A DNA stretch of 32,304 bases, taken from positions 1 through 32,304 of the forward strand of contig JANYIT010000220.1 in the NCBI GenBank assembly GCA_025358725.1. The letters run 5' to 3'. Position numbers and translations under genes: made by a program. This DNA comes from Chamaesiphon sp. GL140_3_metabinner_129_sub. Lineage in GTDB: Bacteria > Cyanobacteriota > Cyanobacteriia > Cyanobacteriales > Chamaesiphonaceae. Positions 1,276 through 24,127 of this stretch are shown here, in pieces; within the stretch, counting starts at the first letter, position 1, and each line of letters starts with the position of its first letter. The notes beneath the pieces are model-generated. The model made no database searches and was not told where the DNA came from. It worked only from the letters and a program-made list of their open reading frames with translations.

Positions 1276-3720
1276 GTGGTAGATACTATCTCAAATATAA
1301 ATCCCAATCTGACTCCAACCGCTACATCTTCACCTACTCTCACCCCCACAGAATTACATCAAATCCACGGCTTTTGGCGGGCTTGCAACTACCTCGCCGC
1401 TGGCATGATTTACCTGCAAGACAATCCCCTCCTGCGCGAACCGATCCAACCCGAACATATCAAAAATCGCTTGTTAGGGCACTGGGGCACTAGTCCTGGC
1501 TTGAGCTTCATTTATACCCATATCAACCGCGTCATCAACAAATTTGACCTCAATGCCATCTATTTGGCTGGGCCTGGACATGGTGCGCCGGGAGTTCTCG
1601 CTCCGGTATATTTAGAAGGCAGCTACTCCGAAATTTACACCGATAAAACTGAAAATATTGACGGGATGCGGGCGTTTTTCCGCCAGTTTTCCTTTCCGGG
1701 TGGAATTGGAAGTCACTGTACGCCTGAAACTCCTGGCTCGATTCATGAGGGTGGCGAACTTGGTTATAGTATTTCCCACGCTTATGGTGCGGTATTCGAA
1801 AATCCTGACTTAATTAGTGTGGTTGTCGTCGGTGATGGTGAAGCCGAAACTGGGCCACTAGCAACCGCTTGGCATTCAAATAAGTTCCTCGATCCGCGTC
1901 GTGATGGGGCGGTATTACCAATTCTGCATTTGAACGGTTACAAGATTAATAACCCGACGATTTTGGCACGGATTAGCCATCAGGAATTAGAGCGATTATT
2001 GCAAGGTTATGGTTATACGCCTTACTTTGTCGAAGGGGATGACTATGAATTAATGCACCAAACAATGGCGGCGACACTCGATCGAGCCATCCAAGCTATT
2101 GATGATCTCCAAACCCGCGCCCGTGTTGATGGAGACACCACTCGCCCCATGTATCCGGCGATCGTGTTCCGCTCTCCCAAAGGTTGGACGGGGCCAAAAG
2201 AGCTAGATGGGCATCAGATCGAGGGTTCCTGGCGATCGCATCAAGTCCCGCTCAAGGCTGTCAAAACCGATCCTAAACAACTAAAAATGTTAGTTGATTG
2301 GCTCCAAAGTTATCACCCAGAGGAACTATTCGACGAAACGGGTAAATTGCGATCGGAATTTCGCGCTGTCGCTCCTGAAGGCACAAAACGGATGGGTAGC
2401 AATCCCCACGCTAATGGCGGTTTACTCCGTAAATCTCTCCGCCTCCCAGATTTCCGTCAGTATGGAGTAGATGTATCGACACCCGAACAGATCGAAGTCT
2501 CGAATACTTATCCATTGGGCGTATTTATGCGGGATATCATCCGCGCTAATCCCGATAATTTTCGGTTATTCGGTCCCGATGAGACGGCTTCTAATCAACT
2601 TCAAGCGGTGTATGAAGCCACCAAGAAGGTGTGGTGGGGTGAGTATTTGCCCACAGATGCCGATGGATGTGAACTGGCGACTGATGGGCGAGTCATGGAG
2701 ATGTTGAGCGAACATACTTTGGAGGGTTGGTTGGAGGGCTATTTATTAACGGGTAGACATGGTTTATTGTCTAGTTATGAGGCATTTATCCACGTTATTG
2801 ATTCGATGTTCAACCAACATGCTAAATGGTTAGAAATTTCGCGCAAATTATCTTGGCGGGCGGAAGTTGCCTCGCTAAATCTATTAATTACTTCGACAGT
2901 ATGGCGGCAGGATCATAATGGTTTTACCCATCAAGATCCAGGCTTTCTCGATTTAGTTGCGAATAAAAGTATGGAGGTGGTGCGGATCTATTTACCGCCG
3001 GATGTTAATTGTTTACTAACAATTGCCGATCGATGTTTTAGAAGTACCGATCGAATCAATGCGATCGTTTCTGACAAACAGCCTCATCTTCAGTACCTGA
3101 CGATCGATGCGGCGATCGCCCACTGCACTAAAGGGATGGGGATTTGGGAATGGGCGAGTACCGATCTTGGTGTTGAGCCAGATGTAGTGATTGCCTGTGC
3201 GGGAGATATTCCTACTCAAGAAGCTCTTGCTGCTGTCGCAATTTTACACGAGTCATTTCCCGATCTGAAGATTAGGTTTATTAATGTTGTCGATTTACTT
3301 GCGCTCCAACAGCCGAGTGAATATGCCGACGGTTTAACAGACAGAGATTTTGATAGTTTATTTACAATTAATAAACCGATTATCTTCAATTTCCACGGCT
3401 ATCCCTGGCTAATTCATCGTTTGACATATCGTCGGACAAACCATGAGAATCTGCATGTGCGGGGCTATAAAGAAAAAGGGAATATTAATACGCCCCTAGA
3501 ATTGGCGATGAATAATCAGATCGATCGATTTACCATTGCCATTGATGCGATCGATCGGGTACCAAAATTACAAGTCGCTGGGGCACATACTAAAGAACAA
3601 CTAAAAAATCGTCAAATCGAATGCCGTCAATATGCTTATAACCACGGTACCGATTTACCAGAAGTTGTGAATTGGCGTTGGAAAAGTTTCGATGAGAATA
3701 CTCAAGAAAGTCTCATCTAA
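1276..3720 (+). CDS. xfp: Xylulose-5-phosphate/fructose-6-phosphate phosphoketolase
   Basis: Thiamine-diphosphate enzyme that splits xylulose 5-phosphate (and usually fructose 6-phosphate) with inorganic phosphate to acetyl phosphate plus glyceraldehyde 3-phosphate (or erythrose 4-phosphate). In cyanobacteria it bypasses glycolysis and supplies acetyl-CoA. The 814 residues match the family length of about 800. Visible are the phosphoketolase signature [14 protein letters not shown] (158-171), the ThDP/Mg motif GDGEAETGP (186-194) with Asn220 in the downstream HLNG, and the substrate-region [10 protein letters not shown] (98-107). The start is a GTG with only a weak ribosome site; no better in-frame start precedes the conserved N-terminal [14 protein letters not shown]. 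It stands alone on this strand, facing rnc. Confidence 0.96.
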
Positions 3721-3760
3721 ATCTCCCCCTATTCCCTATCCCCTGATTTTCGCCGGAAGT

Positions 3761-4465
3761 CTATTGTTTCTGCTCCATTAACTGAGTAAAGGCTACTTTA
3801 GCAGCAGCTTGTTCGGCGGCTTTTTTAGATTGTCCGACACCTGTACCCAACTGTCGATCGCGAAACCAAACTTCAGCGATAAAGCGTTGAAATCGATCGA
3901 GTTTGAGCGGATCTTCATGTACTCGGTATTCTGGCAAGGCTTTATAGTGTGCTTGTGTCCACTCTTGGAGCGCATCCTTATAATTTTGCCGAGCGGGATC
4001 GTCGAGAATTTCAGTAGCTAATTGTTTAAAATGTGGATCTAGCCAGGGACGAATTAATTGGAGATTATTCGTCGTCAGATATAGTGCGGCGAGTACCGCC
4101 TCAAACGCATCAGCCAGCCGCGAAATTCGCCCGGAAGGATCGCCGATAGCCGAAGCTGCCAGAGTGAGATAGCGATCGAATCCATAACCATCGGCAAGTT
4201 GCGCCAAAATTCGATCGCTCACCAACACTTTCCGAATCGCCGAAAAATCACCCACAGACTTGTCTGGATAAATTTCCCACAGAAATTCCGAAGCAGCTAA
4301 TCTGACAACGGCATCACCGATGAATTCTAATTGCTCGTAGTTGGGTACTCCCATCGTCGGATGAGTCAAAGCAATATCCAACAATTTCCAGTCGATCTGA
4401 GTATCTCCAGGCAATCCCAACCGACTCATTAACTTTATTAACTCTTGTTGTCGGCGTGGGTACAT
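3761..4465 (-). CDS. rnc: Ribonuclease III
   Basis: Double-strand-specific endoribonuclease acting in rRNA processing and RNA turnover. The 234-residue protein has the usual two parts: an RNase III domain (about 1-150) with the signature EQLEFIGDAVV, in which E44, E47 and D51 match the conserved acidic cluster, and D119/E122 in RLADAFEAVLAALYL completing the metal site; and a C-terminal dsRNA-binding domain (about 160-232) ending in QSKKAAEQAAAKVAF. It lies 25 bp downstream of the RNase P RNA gene on the same strand, so the two could be co-transcribed. That would place an RNase III gene next to an RNA that carries a long repeat hairpin. Confidence 0.96.
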   Translation of the reverse strand: MYPRRQQELIKLMSRLGLPGDTQIDWKLLDIALTHPTMGVPNYEQLEFIGDAVVRLAASEFLWEIYPDKSVGDFSAIRKVLVSDRILAQLADGYGFDRYLTLAASAIGDPSGRISRLADAFEAVLAALYLTTNNLQLIRPWLDPHFKQLATEILDDPARQNYKDALQEWTQAHYKALPEYRVHEDPLKLDRFQRFIAEVWFRDRQLGTGVGQSKKAAEQAAAKVAFTQLMEQKQ

Positions 4466-4490
4466 CAGTAATTTTATGCGCTCAAAAAAT

Positions 4491-4949
4491 AGAGAGAGAG
4501 TCGGAACGTAAGCCGGGTTCTGTTATCTCTGGCGAGACGGCGGTTATCTATCTGGGTAGTTTGTTACCAAGTACCTCAAGCGGATCGTAACGGAACAGGG
4601 AAAAGACCAACCATAGCTCCTGCCTTGCTTCCAACTGGGGTTTACCGAGCCAGTACCTCTCGATACTGCTGGTGCGCTCTTACCGCACCTTTGCACCCTT
4701 ACCAGTCTAGGCTTTAGGCTTTAGATGTTAGGTGTTAGGTATTTAGAAAATAGGAATATTTTCCTATCTTTTGTTCCCTAAAGCCTAAAGCCTAAAGCCT
4801 AAAGCCTAATTCACGGCGGTATTTTTCTGTGGCACTATCCTCACGATCGCTCGCACTGGGGATTACCCAGCAAGTTTGGTCTTTCGGAAGCCCGGACTTT
4901 CCTCGAATTCAACTAGTGAAATCGCAACCACCTCACCTACTCTCTCTCA
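4491..4949 (-). ncRNA. rnpB: RNase P RNA
   Basis: Catalytic RNA of RNase P, which matures tRNA 5' ends. On the minus strand the conserved GAGGAAAGTCCGGGC core occurs near 4890-4904 and its partner ACAGAACCCGGCTTACG at 4507-4523. The ends pair as a P1 helix (GAGAGAGAGT with ACTCTCTCTC, about 4940-4949 and 4492-4501). The GGTGCGGTAAGAGCGCACC and GTACTGGCTCGGTAAACCCC segments are typical of cyanobacterial type A RNA. The P12 arm is enlarged by heptamer repeats (about 4706-4809). End positions are set from the P1 pairing and may be off by a few bases. Confidence 0.95.
4706..4809. repeat. Heptamer (CCTAAAG/CTTTAGG) repeats forming a hairpin inside rnpB P12
   Basis: About 4.7 tandem copies of CCTAAAG at 4777-4809 face two full and some degenerate copies of the reverse complement at 4708-4739. 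The arms 4708-4724 and 4792-4808 pair perfectly over 17 bp and continue with mismatches inward. A 7-bp stem ATAGGAA/TTCCTAT (4750-4767) closes the tip. Short tandemly repeated (STRR) sequences inside rnpB are described for some cyanobacteria; this is an example of the same kind. Confidence 0.9.
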
Positions 4950-4956
4950 ACTATTT

Positions 4957-4962
4957 ATTGTA
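4957..4962 (-). promoter_or_regulatory. Candidate -10 box of rnpB
   Basis: On the minus strand TACAAT lies 7 bp before the predicted 5' end of the RNase P RNA. No good -35 hexamer is seen at the usual spacing. Confidence 0.4.
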
Positions 4963-5014
4963 CAAGGTAGTCGGTGGACATCACCACTAGAAAAAGAACG
5001 ATTCTCTCGCTCTA

Positions 5015-5089
5015 GTGGCTGCGCCGACGAAATCGGGCACTAAGTCAACCCCGCTAGATCGCATGATCCGACTGCTGGAAGAATACTAG
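5015..5089 (+). CDS. Possible 24-residue small protein (unrecognised)
   Basis: A GTG-initiated frame encodes a 24-residue peptide beginning VAAPTKSGTKSTPLD and ending MIRLLEEY. The composition (an Ala/Thr/Ser/Lys-rich disordered start, then an amphipathic helix DRMIRLLEEY) looks protein-like, but the frame is short and only a weak purine stretch precedes it. No family is recognised. It lies in the 280-bp gap between the divergent rnpB and DUF4335 genes. A chance frame is just as plausible. Confidence 0.2.
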   Translation: MAAPTKSGTKSTPLDRMIRLLEEY

Positions 5090-20362: not shown

Positions 20363-21331
20363 ATGAATTGTCATCAATGCGGGGAAATAGTCACAATAAG
20401 CGATCGATTTTGTGAAGAATGTGGAACAAATCTCGTCGAGACTTCCACCCCCCAGGAGATTGGCAATGGCTGTCAGAAATGTGGTGCAGCACCCACCCAA
20501 ATCGATGCCGACAGGTATTGTATCCAATGTGGATTTCGGCAAGTGGCAATCTCTGATGATTTTGTCGAACTTCAGCCAGCTCCTAATCTAGCTGGAGCAA
20601 GTGATCGCGGGCGTAGGCACCATCAAAATGAAGACGCGATCGCTCTAAAAATAATTGACGCTGACACGTATATCATCGTGGTGTGCGATGGGGTATCTAG
20701 CTCCCAACAGCCCGAACTCGCCTCCCAAGCTGCTGCAACTGCTTGTATTCAGGCAATCGAAATTGGCATCCATCAACATCAAGATGCAGCTACCGCAATT
20801 TGCCAAGGGGTTGCCGCCGCGCTCACAGCAGTTGCGAGTATTCCGATCGATCCTACCTCTTCCATCGATCCATCCTCCACCACGATCGTCACGGCAATCG
20901 TCCATGATCATATTGCTACCATCGGTTGGTTAGGCGATAGTCGTGCCTACTGGATCGCCGCAGACAAATCCCTCCAGCTTACTCAAGATGACTCCTGGAT
21001 GCGCGACGCGATCGAATCAGGAACATTCACCCCCGCCGAAGCCGAAGCATCCCCTTCCGCCCATGCGATCGTTCGTTGGCTCGGTGCAGATGTCGCCGAT
21101 GAAGATAGCACTCCCAACATCACCACTTTTCCCATTCGTAACGCGGGTTATCTCCTCCTCTGTACTGACGGCTTATGGAACTACGCTCCAGATCCTGCCT
21201 ACCTCCACCATCTGATCCAACAATCCCCCAATTCCGACAGCCGATCGATCGCCCGTCACCTAATTAGCTATGCTAATCAACAAGGTGGGCAAGATAATAT
21301 TACTGTGGGCATTCTCTCCACTAGCAACTAG
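20363..21331 (+). CDS. PP2C-type Ser/Thr phosphatase with two N-terminal zinc ribbons
   Basis: A 322-residue metal-dependent protein phosphatase. Two CxxC...CxxC zinc ribbons come first (C3/C6/C17/C20 and C37/C40/C53/C56). The PP2C domain follows with DRGRRHHQNEDA (81-92), VVCDGVSS (107-113), WLGDSRAYW, LCTDGLW and GGQDNITVG (308-316); the Asp residues of the two-metal site are all present. It should remove phosphate from Ser/Thr of partner proteins. The VWA and FHA genes lie downstream in the same orientation, and the FHA protein carries similar zinc ribbons, which suggests a shared assembly. PP2C, VWA and FHA together recall the TerY-P type phosphorylation systems. No kinase is present nearby. 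Confidence 0.92.
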   Translation: MNCHQCGEIVTISDRFCEECGTNLVETSTPQEIGNGCQKCGAAPTQIDADRYCIQCGFRQVAISDDFVELQPAPNLAGASDRGRRHHQNEDAIALKIIDADTYIIVVCDGVSSSQQPELASQAAATACIQAIEIGIHQHQDAATAICQGVAAALTAVASIPIDPTSSIDPSSTTIVTAIVHDHIATIGWLGDSRAYWIAADKSLQLTQDDSWMRDAIESGTFTPAEAEASPSAHAIVRWLGADVADEDSTPNITTFPIRNAGYLLLCTDGLWNYAPDPAYLHHLIQQSPNSDSRSIARHLISYANQQGGQDNITVGILSTSN

Positions 21332-21460
21332 TGAATTTTTGGATATTGATCGATCGCATCTCCACCCAATCCTTGGTAGCACGAAACCCAACAGCAGCAA
21401 GATCGACTTACAAAATTGTTGAGTTTCACGTTAATTAGTCAGTGATAGCCGTTGGCGACA

Positions 21461-21506
21461 CTAAAACCCAACCTAAAGCCTAAAACCCAAAGCCCAAAAC
21501 CTAACT
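21461..21506. repeat. Degenerate heptamer array (CCTAAAG-type) abutting the VWA start codon
   Basis: Units CCTAAAG, CCTAAAA, CCCAAAG, CCCAAAA and CCTAACT are in register from 21472; related sequence begins at 21461. The array ends one base before the ATG at 21508. It contains no Shine-Dalgarno-like purine run at the proper spacing. Confidence 0.85.
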
Positions 21507-21507
21507 T

Positions 21508-22776
21508 ATGTTTATCGCAGAAGTCTTCCAAAATCCCTACCTTCCCCAAGGTGCGAAAGAAGTAAACGCTATCATGACAATTACCACCAATGGTAATGAT
21601 GGAGTAGCTATTGCAGCACCCAAAAGTCAACGTTTATTCGGCATTATTTGCGATACATCTGGCTCAATGGGTGGAGCAAAGATGATTGCAGCTAAAGAAG
21701 CGATCATTCAAATCATTAATCTCCTGCCTACCGAAGCAGCATTTTTTGTGATTACCGGATCGAGTCGAGCAAAATTATTAGTCCCACTAGTAAATGCTGT
21801 ACCTGAAAATAAACTGCGAGCAATTTCCCAGGTAAAAGAAATTAGTGCCAACGGGGGAACAGTGATGTCGAGCTGGCTGCATCCTGCTTTAGGTGAATTT
21901 AATAAAATGCCCCAAGCAATTTGTCAAGCCTTATTACTCACTGATGGACAAAACGATCCTAGTGATGAGCAGGATTTAACTCGAACTCTAGCTGCCTGTG
22001 AAGGTAGATTTCAGTGTGATTGTCGTGGCGTAGGTACAGATTGGCGCGTAGCTGAATTGCAACAAATTGCTACAAGATTATTAGGTACGACTGATATTAT
22101 TTCTTCACCCGATCGCATTGCCGCTGACTTTCAAGAAATACTTACCAAAGCAATGGGAAAAACTGTTAGTGATGTTAGTCTGAGGCTCTGGACTCCGGTA
22201 GGTGCAAAGGTGTTATTTTGCAAACAAGTAAGTCCAGAAATCGTCGATGTTACCAGTCGCGCCAAAGTCGTGAGTGAAAGAATTGTAGACTATCCTACAG
22301 GTGCTTGGGGGAGTAATGAATCTCGCGATTATCATTTCTGTATCCAGATTAATGCTGGGAATATTGGTGATGAAATGTTAGCTGGAAGAGCGAGTTTGAT
22401 TACGCAGACGAATGGACAAGAAACCAAAATTACTGAAGCAAAAATCCTCGCCACTTGGACAGAAGATGAAGCCAAAACAGCTAAGATCGATCGACGAGTT
22501 GCTCACTATACCGGACAAGCAGAACTCAGTCAATTTATTCAAGAAGGTTTAGAAGCCAAAGCGCAAGGCAATATTGACGTAGCCACAGCAAAATTAGGTA
22601 AAGCCGTCAAACTTGCTCACGATTCTGGTAACGAAGCCACAGCCAAACTCCTACGCTCTGTCGTCGATGTCGAAGATGCCGCCGCTGGTACCGTCAGAAT
22701 CAAACGCACCGTAGCCAAAGAAGATGAAATGATGCTAGAGACTCGATCGACCAAAACCGCTAGAATTCAGAAGTAG
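21508..22776 (+). CDS. VWA-domain protein with intact MIDAS (TerY-like partner)
   Basis: A 422-residue cytosolic protein. The VWA domain spans about 42-220: MIDAS DTSGS (49-53), Thr118 in SANGGTVMSSW and Asp146 in LLTDGQND make a complete metal-dependent ligand site. A middle beta-rich region (about 225-335) and a helical C-terminus with QAELSQFIQEGLEAKAQGNIDVATAKLGKAVKLAHDSGNEATAKLL (about 340-395), resembling a TPR-like or helical bundle, follow. VWA proteins of this kind serve as adaptors in Ter-type and kinase/phosphatase systems. The leader is a heptamer array with no clear ribosome site. Substrate and partners are inferred from context. Confidence 0.88.
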   Translation: MFIAEVFQNPYLPQGAKEVNAIMTITTNGNDGVAIAAPKSQRLFGIICDTSGSMGGAKMIAAKEAIIQIINLLPTEAAFFVITGSSRAKLLVPLVNAVPENKLRAISQVKEISANGGTVMSSWLHPALGEFNKMPQAICQALLLTDGQNDPSDEQDLTRTLAACEGRFQCDCRGVGTDWRVAELQQIATRLLGTTDIISSPDRIAADFQEILTKAMGKTVSDVSLRLWTPVGAKVLFCKQVSPEIVDVTSRAKVVSERIVDYPTGAWGSNESRDYHFCIQINAGNIGDEMLAGRASLITQTNGQETKITEAKILATWTEDEAKTAKIDRRVAHYTGQAELSQFIQEGLEAKAQGNIDVATAKLGKAVKLAHDSGNEATAKLLRSVVDVEDAAAGTVRIKRTVAKEDEMMLETRSTKTARIQK

Positions 22777-22779
22777 GGG

Positions 22780-22805
22780 TTAGGCTTTAGACTTTAGACT
22801 TTAGG
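22780..22805. repeat. Heptamer array (CTTTAGA/CTTTAGG)
   Basis: About three tandem CTTTAGR units directly after the VWA gene. This is the reverse complement of the CCTAAAG heptamer seen in rnpB and before the VWA gene. Confidence 0.85.
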
Positions 22806-22816
22806 GCGTTTTTATT

Positions 22817-22886
22817 CCCATCTCCCAACTCCCATCTCCCATCTCCCATCTCCCATCTCCCATCTCCCATCTCCCATCTCCCATCT
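22817..22886. repeat. Heptamer array (CCCATCT)10 abutting the FHA start codon
   Basis: Ten tandem heptamers, nine CCCATCT and one CCCAACT, ending one base before the ATG at 22888. The entire 70-nt leader contains no G, so no Shine-Dalgarno pairing is possible there. Confidence 0.97.
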
Positions 22887-22887
22887 C

Positions 22888-23601
22888 ATGTATATTTGTC
22901 CAAAAAATCATAATTCAACAGAAGCCGATTTTTGCTCTGAGTGTGGGGCAAAAATTATGGGATTGGGGGTAGCCGAACTTAACTCAAATCCACTCAATCC
23001 ACAGATTTCGACCACATCAACATCTGTTTCAGCCCAACCTTGTCCCGATTGCAGTACACTTCATGAGGCAGATAGCGGCAGTTTTTGTGAGATTTGTGGT
23101 TACAATTTTCTTACTGGTACTCAAGGGGGAGATCCCTTGTCTGTTTTTCCACCACCAGTCAAGTCACCAGCCAATATTGCCACTGCACCAACTCGGCTAC
23201 CAAACAGCTCTGTTAGTGCGCCAATTTCCTTGCCTAGTAACGTTAGCCAATGGCAGATGATCATCTCGATCGATCCGAGTTTAGCCACCCCTGACAGCCC
23301 CACAGCCCCCGTACAAGCTCCAATTACCATTCAATTAAACCAGGGTACAAATCTGATCGGACGTACCAGTCAAGCGCGTGCTATTAATCCTGAAATTCCG
23401 CTAGATTTGGATGATGCTGTCTCCTCTCGTCACGCTATTCTCACTCTCCACCCCGATGGCTCTCTAGTGCTCAGAGATATCGGCTCATCAAATGGCACAC
23501 TCGTAAATGGTAAGGAGATCGCCATTATGGCAGATATTTTGATCTCCAGAGGCGATCAAATCACCCTCGGACATTGGACGAGAATTCAGGTAAATAAATA
23601 A
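22888..23601 (+). CDS. FHA-domain phosphothreonine-binding protein with two zinc ribbons
   Basis: A 237-residue protein. Two N-terminal zinc ribbons (C4 to C19 region, with NH...C16xxC19; and C52/C55/C67/C70), a Pro/Ser-rich linker (about 82-122), then a C-terminal FHA domain (about 145-235) with the phosphopeptide-binding residues GR (158-159), SSRH (179-182), and [10 protein letters not shown] (199-208). It should dock on phosphothreonine peptides made by a kinase elsewhere. The start is fixed by the zinc ribbon, since Met1 is 3 residues before C4. It follows the VWA gene by 111 bp of repeats and ends in a strong terminator. Confidence 0.92.
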
Positions 23602-23648: not shown

Positions 23649-24044
23649 TGGAGCTGGGCAGAGTCGAACTGCCGTCCGCCCTGGGTATTCACTTTCCGCT
23701 CATTCACAGGTATAGTCTATCTAATCCTCAAGACGGGAGTGACCAATTATCCCAGGTCGCAGGATTCTCTGATGAATCTTAGCTATCTAACCTACCAGAG
23801 ACGGTTGAATAGAGCATCCGTTGAGGGTTATCTATAGTAATTAACGGAGTCATACTATAAATGCTCGAACTTAGAAATTAATCTTAAGCGTTTTTTTAAG
23901 CAGCTACAGGAGCGGCTTTACGAGCGAAAGGTACAATGTTGTTTGCATCTATATTTATTTGAGCCGATATTAACGAGAGTGGACTCCCTCTCGACCTGAA
24001 TCACAGTGCAGCTTTCGCCAACACGTCGAAACCTTTACAGCCCC
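23649..24044 (-). ncRNA. ssrA: tmRNA (tag ANNIVPFARKAAPVAA)
   Basis: Transfer-messenger RNA that frees stalled ribosomes and tags the nascent chain for proteolysis. Ends pair as a tRNA-like acceptor stem: 5' GGGGCTG (24044 down) with CAGCTCC plus discriminator A (ending 23649). The 3' half has GGCAGTTCGACTCTGCC, the T-arm. CCA is not encoded. The tag frame runs 23946 down to 23896 (GCA resume codon to TAA) and reads ANNIVPFARKAAPVAA, a typical cyanobacterial tag with a hydrophobic Val-Ala-Ala end. One-piece, standard arrangement. Confidence 0.97.
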
Positions 24045-24083: not shown

Positions 24084-24092
24084 GGGAGGGGG

Positions 24093-24127
24093 CTTTAGGT
24101 TTTAGGCTTTAGGCTTTAGGCTTTAGG
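24093..24127. repeat. Heptamer array (CTTTAGG)5
   Basis: Five tandem units (four CTTTAGG and one TTTTAGG), 24 bp before the lipid-A-disaccharide-synthase-related gene and just upstream of the ssrA promoter on the other strand. Confidence 0.95.

Follow-up and report, generated by a model that had tools for sequence, protein, structure and literature searches.

Three adjacent genes with intact motifs

The 32,304-nucleotide contig JANYIT010000220.1 of the cyanobacterium Chamaesiphon sp. GL140_3_metabinner_129_sub, analysed over its whole length and referred to below as the window, carries on its forward strand three consecutive genes encoding a PP2C serine/threonine phosphatase, a VWA protein and an FHA protein (the trio). 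A preliminary description made from the DNA alone had reported this trio, and both the presence of the genes and the integrity of their motifs are borne out by open reading frames, Pfam matches and alignments. The phosphatase (322 amino acids, 20363..21331) begins with a double zinc ribbon (C3/C6/C17/C20 and C37/C40/C53/C56, 20369..20530), which Pfam detects as DZR (3e-06; 27.7 bits, just over the cut-off of 27.3), and continues into a PP2C_2 domain (residues 84–287, 20612..21223; 1.4e-12). Its PP2C motif residues (e.g. N89, D91, D109-G110, D192, D269-G270 and D311-N312) are identical in 25–26 of 26 sequences. PP2C proteins of this DZR-bearing architecture have been described before, chiefly from Pseudomonadota, Cyanobacteriota and Chloroflexota (PMC12088040).

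The VWA protein (422 amino acids, 21508..22776) matches VWA_3 (3.9e-13) and, at its C-terminus, VWA_3_C (1.7e-19). It lies between the other two genes and has a complete metal-ion-dependent adhesion site (MIDAS), as had been described: D49-x-S51-x-S53 (21652-21666), T118 (21859-21861) and D146 (21943-21945), which together span 21652..21945, are invariant in 19 sequences. The FHA protein (237 amino acids, 22888..23601) has two zinc ribbons at its N-terminus (C4/H8/C16/C19 and C52/C55/C67/C70, 22897..23097) and an FHA domain near its C-terminus (residues 157–228, 23356..23571; Pfam 5.1e-13), in which G158-R159, S179, R181-H182 and N202-G203-T204, the residues by which FHA domains bind phospho-threonine, are invariant in 19 sequences. 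Its DZR match (3.5e-05, 24.3 bits) is under the cut-off. The claim that both proteins carry two CxxC-type ribbons holds for the phosphatase, with its four CxxC knuckles, and needs amending for the FHA protein, in which three CxxC knuckles are preceded by C4-x3-H8; neither C4 nor H8 varies among 19 aligned relatives. The spacers between the three genes measure 176 and 111 bp and contain heptamer repeats, tandem arrays of which lie around the trio at 21470-21504, 22780-22804, 22816-22887 and 24091-24127.

A PknG-type kinase and a conserved gene cluster

The preliminary description found no kinase in the window, and this is correct locally: of 23 protein-kinase matches in the genome to which the window belongs (G000; 4.39 Mb, 408 contigs, 92.6% complete), 21 of them over cut-off, none lies on the window contig (C325). 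It had also suggested that a kinase with two zinc ribbons might act from elsewhere, and the genome search found one, a PknG-type kinase at C39:19452-21716 (locus L009) that is among the 23. This protein matches PknG_rubred (PF16919, 2.2e-17), Pkinase (PF00069, 7.5e-35) and PknG_TPR (PF16918, 1.1e-61), and its closest solved sequence is PknG itself (2pzi, 1.3e-123). In addition to the rubredoxin it has an N-terminal C-x4-C/C-x2-C ribbon, so that it fits the double-ribbon kinase that had been sought, and its TPR domain is C-terminal. An asparaginase-like gene, read from sequence, lies beside pknG on C39 and was considered as a functional hint, which was dropped when the gene was found in none of four other Chamaesiphon pknG stretches (L074, L076, L077, L081).

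A pattern scan of genome contigs, which by design retrieves close relatives only, gave 26 loci with relatives of the VWA gene, those nearest to the window's being from Chamaesiphon (89–91% identity). In most of the other loci the genes share one strand in the order HEL-PknG-PP2C-VWA-FHA-GlnX, where HEL is a gene for a helical protein without confident Pfam family (AlphaFold2 mean pLDDT, the predicted local distance difference test, 86; no PDB matches with E ≤ 0.001). Among the 21 loci outside Chamaesiphon we found PknG upstream on the same strand in 16, or in 16 of 19 once loci with less than 3 kb of upstream sequence are set aside, and PP2C in 17, FHA in 20, GlnX in 20 and HEL in 14. Of the five loci lacking PknG, two reach only a short way upstream (L047 by 1,462 bases and L055 by 195); the other three, L045, L051 and L058, have 5–8 kb of upstream DNA. 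L045, the sole locus without FHA and GlnX, ends 70 bases past the VWA gene. In none of the five Chamaesiphon loci do PknG, GlnX or HEL lie beside the trio, although the absence of GlnX carries little weight for L037 and L039, which have less than 1 kb downstream. The preliminary description had named a kinase gene beside the cassette in most relatives as a finding that would refute its reading and mean a local loss only, and this is what the 16 of 21 loci display. With PknG on another contig in Chamaesiphon and upstream of the trio in most loci elsewhere, the system as such does not lack a kinase; its kinase-less look is a matter of local dispersal, arising from the view of one contig, and that reading is corrected here.

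The gene after FHA belongs to NCBIfam NF058618 ('GlnX family signal transduction membrane protein'), with matches over cut-off for L042 (5.9e-83) and L059 (1.5e-85) and under cut-off for the Pseudanabaenaceae locus L060 (2.6e-40), and the equivalog NF041460 ('protein kinase G-activating protein GlnX') matches L042 and L059 weakly. The window's genome has GlnX at C35:25508-26839 (NF058618, 264.4 bits against a cut-off of 250) and HEL at C49:3997-5184 on the minus strand. In L060 GlnX is followed by a Peripla_BP_6 solute-binding gene. GlnX of Chamaesiphon lies near a gene read as glycogen synthase (G000:C35; L124 5473-8314), with a close match in 6 of the 7 GlnX loci analysed for that genus.

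The cluster is also present in one actinobacterium, Nonomuraea gerenzanensis (NZ_LT559118.1, L107), the single example from that phylum, where VWA and PknG (40.5% and 36.2% identity) lie about 1 kb apart and one strand carries HEL-PknG-PP2C-VWA-FHA-GlnX-GlnH (phmmer 2.8e-22, 1.6e-117, 3.5e-29, 1.9e-96, 6.1e-23 and 5.1e-33 for the first six, the last being a GlnH-like lipoprotein named from its sequence). The PP2C and FHA frames both show zinc ribbons. For two PknG genes on plasmids of Nocardia sp., the annotation, itself incomplete, shows no such neighbours. In a cyanobacterium of another class (G345) the genes share one strand in the permuted order VWA-FHA-GlnX-HEL-PknG-PP2C, and in G009 and G010 HEL-PknG and VWA-FHA-GlnX are on separate contigs; the same set in different orders argues for a functional unit. 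The spacers of 176 and 111 bp with their repeats do not make a tightly packed operon, as would suit three unrelated genes that are neighbours by accident, but the order is conserved and the genes co-occur in several genera and one actinobacterium, with a second, permuted arrangement besides, and we regard accident as refuted for practical purposes. The grouping of the three genes in the preliminary description is upheld by this conserved order and by the co-occurrence given below.

Some loci have features of their own. G345 carries part of the set a second time (VWA-FHA-GlnX-HEL), on a contig of 4.5 kb (L130, G345:C444). In L061, on a contig of a metagenome-assembled genome (MAG), PknG (201-2407) and VWA (3656-5055) are each read as two overlapping frames, through error or decay. 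An apparent spread to Acidobacteria was rejected: L059 comes from an Acidobacteriaceae MAG, the only one matched among 199 genomes of that phylum, and is likely to reflect transfer or misbinning. In L042 (6258-7837) and L043 (6255-7892) PP2C and VWA are separated by an insert encoding a ParA-like ATPase, a small protein and a third protein that matches Mrr_cat weakly; part of this insert recurs in L050 (7429-7842).

The preliminary description had likened the trio to TerY-P-type systems. On such a reading VWA and PP2C would belong to a tellurite- or defence-associated module that lost its kinase locally. The parts are indeed similar, TerY-P also combining VWA, PP2C and a zinc-ribbon serine/threonine kinase (PMC11090510), and the L042 and L043 inserts, with a ParA-like gene and an Mrr_cat match below cut-off (0.02), could be taken in its favour. 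In TerY-P, however, the zinc ribbon is fused at the C-terminus of the kinase (PMC11090510), whereas the kinase found here is of PknG type with N-terminal ribbons and C-terminal TPRs, and the constant partners of the trio are GlnX and FHA. A Pfam scan of 17 window proteins, out of 31 open reading frames of at least 100 amino acids, revealed no TerD, other Ter or restriction family. A broader defence role was rejected too, as PADLOC returned PDC-M21C (5.6e-09) and a weak PP2C match for the phosphatase, nothing for VWA and PD-T4-6 (0.044) for FHA. We therefore reject the TerY-P label, on account of the different kinase architecture and partners, and consider such a module very improbable.

Co-occurrence was surveyed in 120 related genomes, G000 included, with cut-offs of 1e-20 for VWA and FHA, 1e-40 for PknG and 1e-10 for GlnX and HEL. 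VWA, GlnX and HEL were each found in 12 genomes and PknG and FHA in 11, all confined to the same 12 genomes from 5 of 66 genera, with none of the five genes in the remaining 108. PknG is lacking in G007 (89% complete, 650 contigs), and FHA in G002, where only 133 bases separate the VWA gene from the edge of its contig. A second draw, of 292 genomes from across the phylum and overlapping with the first, had VWA_3_C in 5 genomes, and GlnX (<1e-50) and PknG_TPR (<1e-30) in exactly those 5. This count is not wholly clean: 17 further genomes have weak GlnX matches (2e-07 or weaker), 75 further genomes have weak PknG_TPR matches (4e-09 or weaker), 21 of which pass that model's low cut-off, and G345, one of the 5, falls under the GlnX cut-off. 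Orthologous PP2C (<1e-35) was found in 12 of 15 genomes examined. The coincidence of VWA, PknG, GlnX and HEL in the same few genomes is beyond chance.

In Chamaesiphon the six-gene set is complete in the window's genome but spread over four contigs. The assembly of G006, in three contigs, has all of it on one contig, with the trio at 2.92, HEL at 3.07, GlnX at 4.09 and PknG at 5.60 Mb, and so the genes are truly apart in this genus. VWA, PknG, GlnX and HEL occur together in six of nine Chamaesiphon genomes; G007 has three of the four and lacks PknG, and neither these four nor FHA are found in G001 (82% complete) and G008 (77% complete). Since the loss of four unlinked genes through incompleteness is estimated at 0.1–0.3% for each genome if losses are independent, joint loss in G001 and G008 is likely. 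Among the evidence assembled, the strongest for a shared function is this all-or-none retention after the break-up of the cluster. Congruence of the gene trees, compared only with one another (Mantel r 0.67–0.98 over 10 pairs, a level that none of 2000 permutations reached for any pair), adds weak support.

Likeness to the archaeal ArnAB pair

As modelled by AlphaFold2 (mean pLDDT 77, from 19 sequences), the VWA protein comprises N-terminal strands, the VWA domain, further strands and C-terminal helices, an ArnB-like arrangement. The top PDB match of the model is 4fx5, a VWA protein of Catenulispora acidiphila of the same family (45% identity over the full length), which differs in being a solved structure. 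The second is ArnB (8s05_A; E 3.3e-20, TM 0.63/0.68), from an entry entitled 'ArnAB complex an archaeal ortholog of the Sec23/24 core motif', and the third an ArnB paralogue (5a8j, 2.1e-18). The profile of the FHA family matches ArnA (8s05_C, 3.4e-05, profile positions 46–225; 5a8i, 6.5e-05, positions 50–225) over a range that begins before the second ribbon. In the account of PMC12852372, ArnA and ArnB of Sulfolobus acidocaldarius have consecutive locus tags and combine a zinc-finger FHA protein with a VWA protein of this three-part fold (its C-terminal ArnB_C domain being IPR040929). The zinc finger of ArnA contacts ArnB and holds the unphosphorylated protein loosely, phosphorylation leading to tight binding by the FHA domain, and the nutrient-responsive pair is acted on by ArnC, a kinase with a TPR-like stretch, and by a phosphatase, PP2A (PMC12852372). 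The preliminary description had taken the common zinc ribbons of the trio to suggest assembly on one scaffold; this is conceivable, and the zinc-finger contact in ArnAB offers a parallel.

With the predicted beta-sandwich and C-terminal helical domain around its VWA domain, and a neighbouring gene for a partner with N-terminal ribbons and C-terminal FHA domain, the pair in the window looks like a bacterial ArnAB-type switch, as judged from model and profiles. There are also differences: the FHA protein here has two ribbons rather than one zinc finger, the phosphatase is PP2C rather than PP2A, the kinase is of PknG type, the candidate phosphosite lies in a disordered tail, and bacteria have no archaellum. 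The account of ArnAB names 4fx5 as a structural relative and places such architectures mostly outside multi-phosphorylation-dependent processes (PMC12852372); the clustered genes suggest that this VWA family may take part in such processes.

A candidate site is provided by the C-terminus of the VWA protein, of which residues 412-422 are predicted to be disordered (pLDDT <50). Residues 412-420 (22741..22767) are nearly invariant, with a mean majority fraction of 0.96; the whole protein averages 0.78, and its two other disordered stretches have values of 0.45 and 0.72. T417-x-R419 is present in 37 of 37 C-terminal tails (a set of 38 rows less the N-terminal fragment of L061, in which L127 and L128 repeat L041 and L042), including those of Nonomuraea and G345, and the same T-x-R tail is found in 4fx5. 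An E-T-x-S motif was tried as phosphosite and rejected, T412 being lost in Nonomuraea and G345 and replaced by Ser in L084; given this variability T417 (22756-22758) is the preferred candidate phospho-threonine. Such a tail, disordered, nearly invariant and containing a threonine, would suit a phospho-dependent ligand.

A proposed PknG-type phospho-switch and its alternatives

We propose that the trio contributes phosphatase, VWA and FHA proteins to a PknG-type pathway whose other genes (PknG, GlnX and HEL) lie at other loci in Chamaesiphon, and that it works as an ArnAB-like phospho-switch; we put the probability of this at roughly 0.7. From the observed gene content, order and co-occurrence, the membership of the PknG and GlnX families, the intact motifs, the fold match to ArnB and the profile match to ArnA, we infer a signalling order, a phosphosite and a VWA–FHA complex as follows. 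GlnX, of a family that relays extracellular amino-acid levels in mycobacteria and Corynebacterium, would activate PknG, and PknG in turn would phosphorylate the VWA protein towards its C-terminus, most likely in the tail that includes T417. As an ArnA-like reader, the FHA protein would then bind the phospho-threonine through its FHA domain, turning a loose VWA–FHA contact into a tight one as in ArnA–ArnB, and the zinc-ribbon PP2C, as the eraser, would reverse the phosphorylation. The trio most probably works as a switch of this ArnAB-like kind.

The upper part of this scheme has precedents in actinobacteria. In mycobacteria Asp, Glu and Asn are ligands of GlnH, from which a signal is proposed to pass by way of GlnX to PknG (PMC6069109), and in Corynebacterium glutamicum OdhI is under the control of GlnH, GlnX and PknG, with Ppp as phosphatase (PMC9769921). 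Like that pathway, the cluster includes PknG with rubredoxin and TPRs, GlnX, an FHA protein and a phosphatase, and in Nonomuraea also a GlnH-like gene on the same strand. Unlike it, the cluster has PP2C, VWA and a zinc-ribbon FHA protein as genetic partners, the FHA protein is without the ETTS motif, a solute-binding gene was found in one cyanobacterial locus only, and the genes are dispersed in Chamaesiphon.

The FHA protein might instead work as OdhI and GarA do, as a substrate of PknG whose unphosphorylated form inhibits a metabolic enzyme, the VWA protein being an accessory. FHA proteins are phosphorylated by PknG in actinobacteria (PMC8546545, PMC9769921), and GarA/OdhI chains are among the profile matches of the FHA protein. 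The PknG site of OdhI and GarA, however, lies within an ETTS motif (PMC8546545), which is not conserved in 29 FHA proteins as read from their alignment, and no invariant Thr precedes T204 of the FHA domain in 19 sequences. The GarA/OdhI matches span the FHA domain only, the ArnA match being longer (by match ranges, not by alignment). Lacking ETTS, the family is not simply OdhI/GarA, and we rejected orthology; an OdhI-like working is unlikely.

Several observations weigh against an ArnAB-like switch under PknG. In sequence profiles the VWA protein matches ArnB (8s05_A, 3.1e-10) no better than human ITIH4 (3.4e-10), in both cases over the VWA domain only; ten other FHA chains outscore ArnA, over the FHA domain, and a profile search with the ribbon part of the FHA protein alone did not find ArnA. 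The ArnB phosphosites given in PMC12852372 are in the helix bundle and not in a disordered tail, and the missing ETTS motif sets the FHA protein apart from the established PknG substrates. Orthologous PP2C is absent from G009, G010 and G396, which have generic PP2C matches only, and solute-binding genes adjoin GlnX only in L060 and Nonomuraea (the other loci having been searched with the L060 protein only). Part of the co-occurrence reflects joint inheritance of one cluster.

It is also conceivable that another Hanks-type kinase writes on the trio and that the association with PknG and GlnX is historical. The 23 kinase-domain matches in G000 offer candidates, and these too count against our proposal, as does the trio of one Chamaesiphon relative, beside which an FHA-fused kinase lies in convergent orientation in a genome (G007, 89% complete) where PknG was not found; in Corynebacterium several kinases phosphorylate OdhI, in vitro at least (PMC9769921). 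Against this, PknG is present in 11 of 12 VWA-bearing genomes, though unlinked to the trio in Chamaesiphon, and we consider a different writer improbable. The FHA-fused kinase (L040 5151-6341, minus strand) is different from PknG, and a kinase on C155 of G000 (L011) has a similar N-terminus when the two are compared by eye.

If the trio does belong to a PknG pathway, PknG, studied in the work cited here through OdhI and GarA, gains a second candidate substrate system in bacteria far from actinobacteria. PknG is described as mostly restricted to Actinobacteria, with homologues in Calothrix and Ktedonobacter (PMC8546545). The VWA family whose member 4fx5 was cited as an ArnB look-alike gains candidate partners (FHA reader, kinase and phosphatase), and what the zinc ribbons and GlnX do becomes testable in harmless cyanobacteria. 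More tentatively, and at odds that we put somewhat below even, the ancestral PknG operon may have been a seven-gene circuit (HEL, PknG, PP2C, VWA, FHA, GlnX, GlnH) with an ArnAB-type VWA–FHA switch as its native substrate, and mycobacteria and corynebacteria would have kept a reduced version of it, the GlnX–PknG–OdhI/GarA pathway, in which a different FHA protein is the substrate; archaeal ArnAB and PknG signalling would then share an old VWA–FHA core. In the open-access literature no title or abstract surfaced that describes the HEL-PknG-PP2C-VWA-FHA-GlnX cluster or links ArnAB with PknG.

Directly after the FHA gene the window contains a transfer-messenger RNA gene on the minus strand (23649-24044), with the tag ANNIVPFARKAAPVAA.

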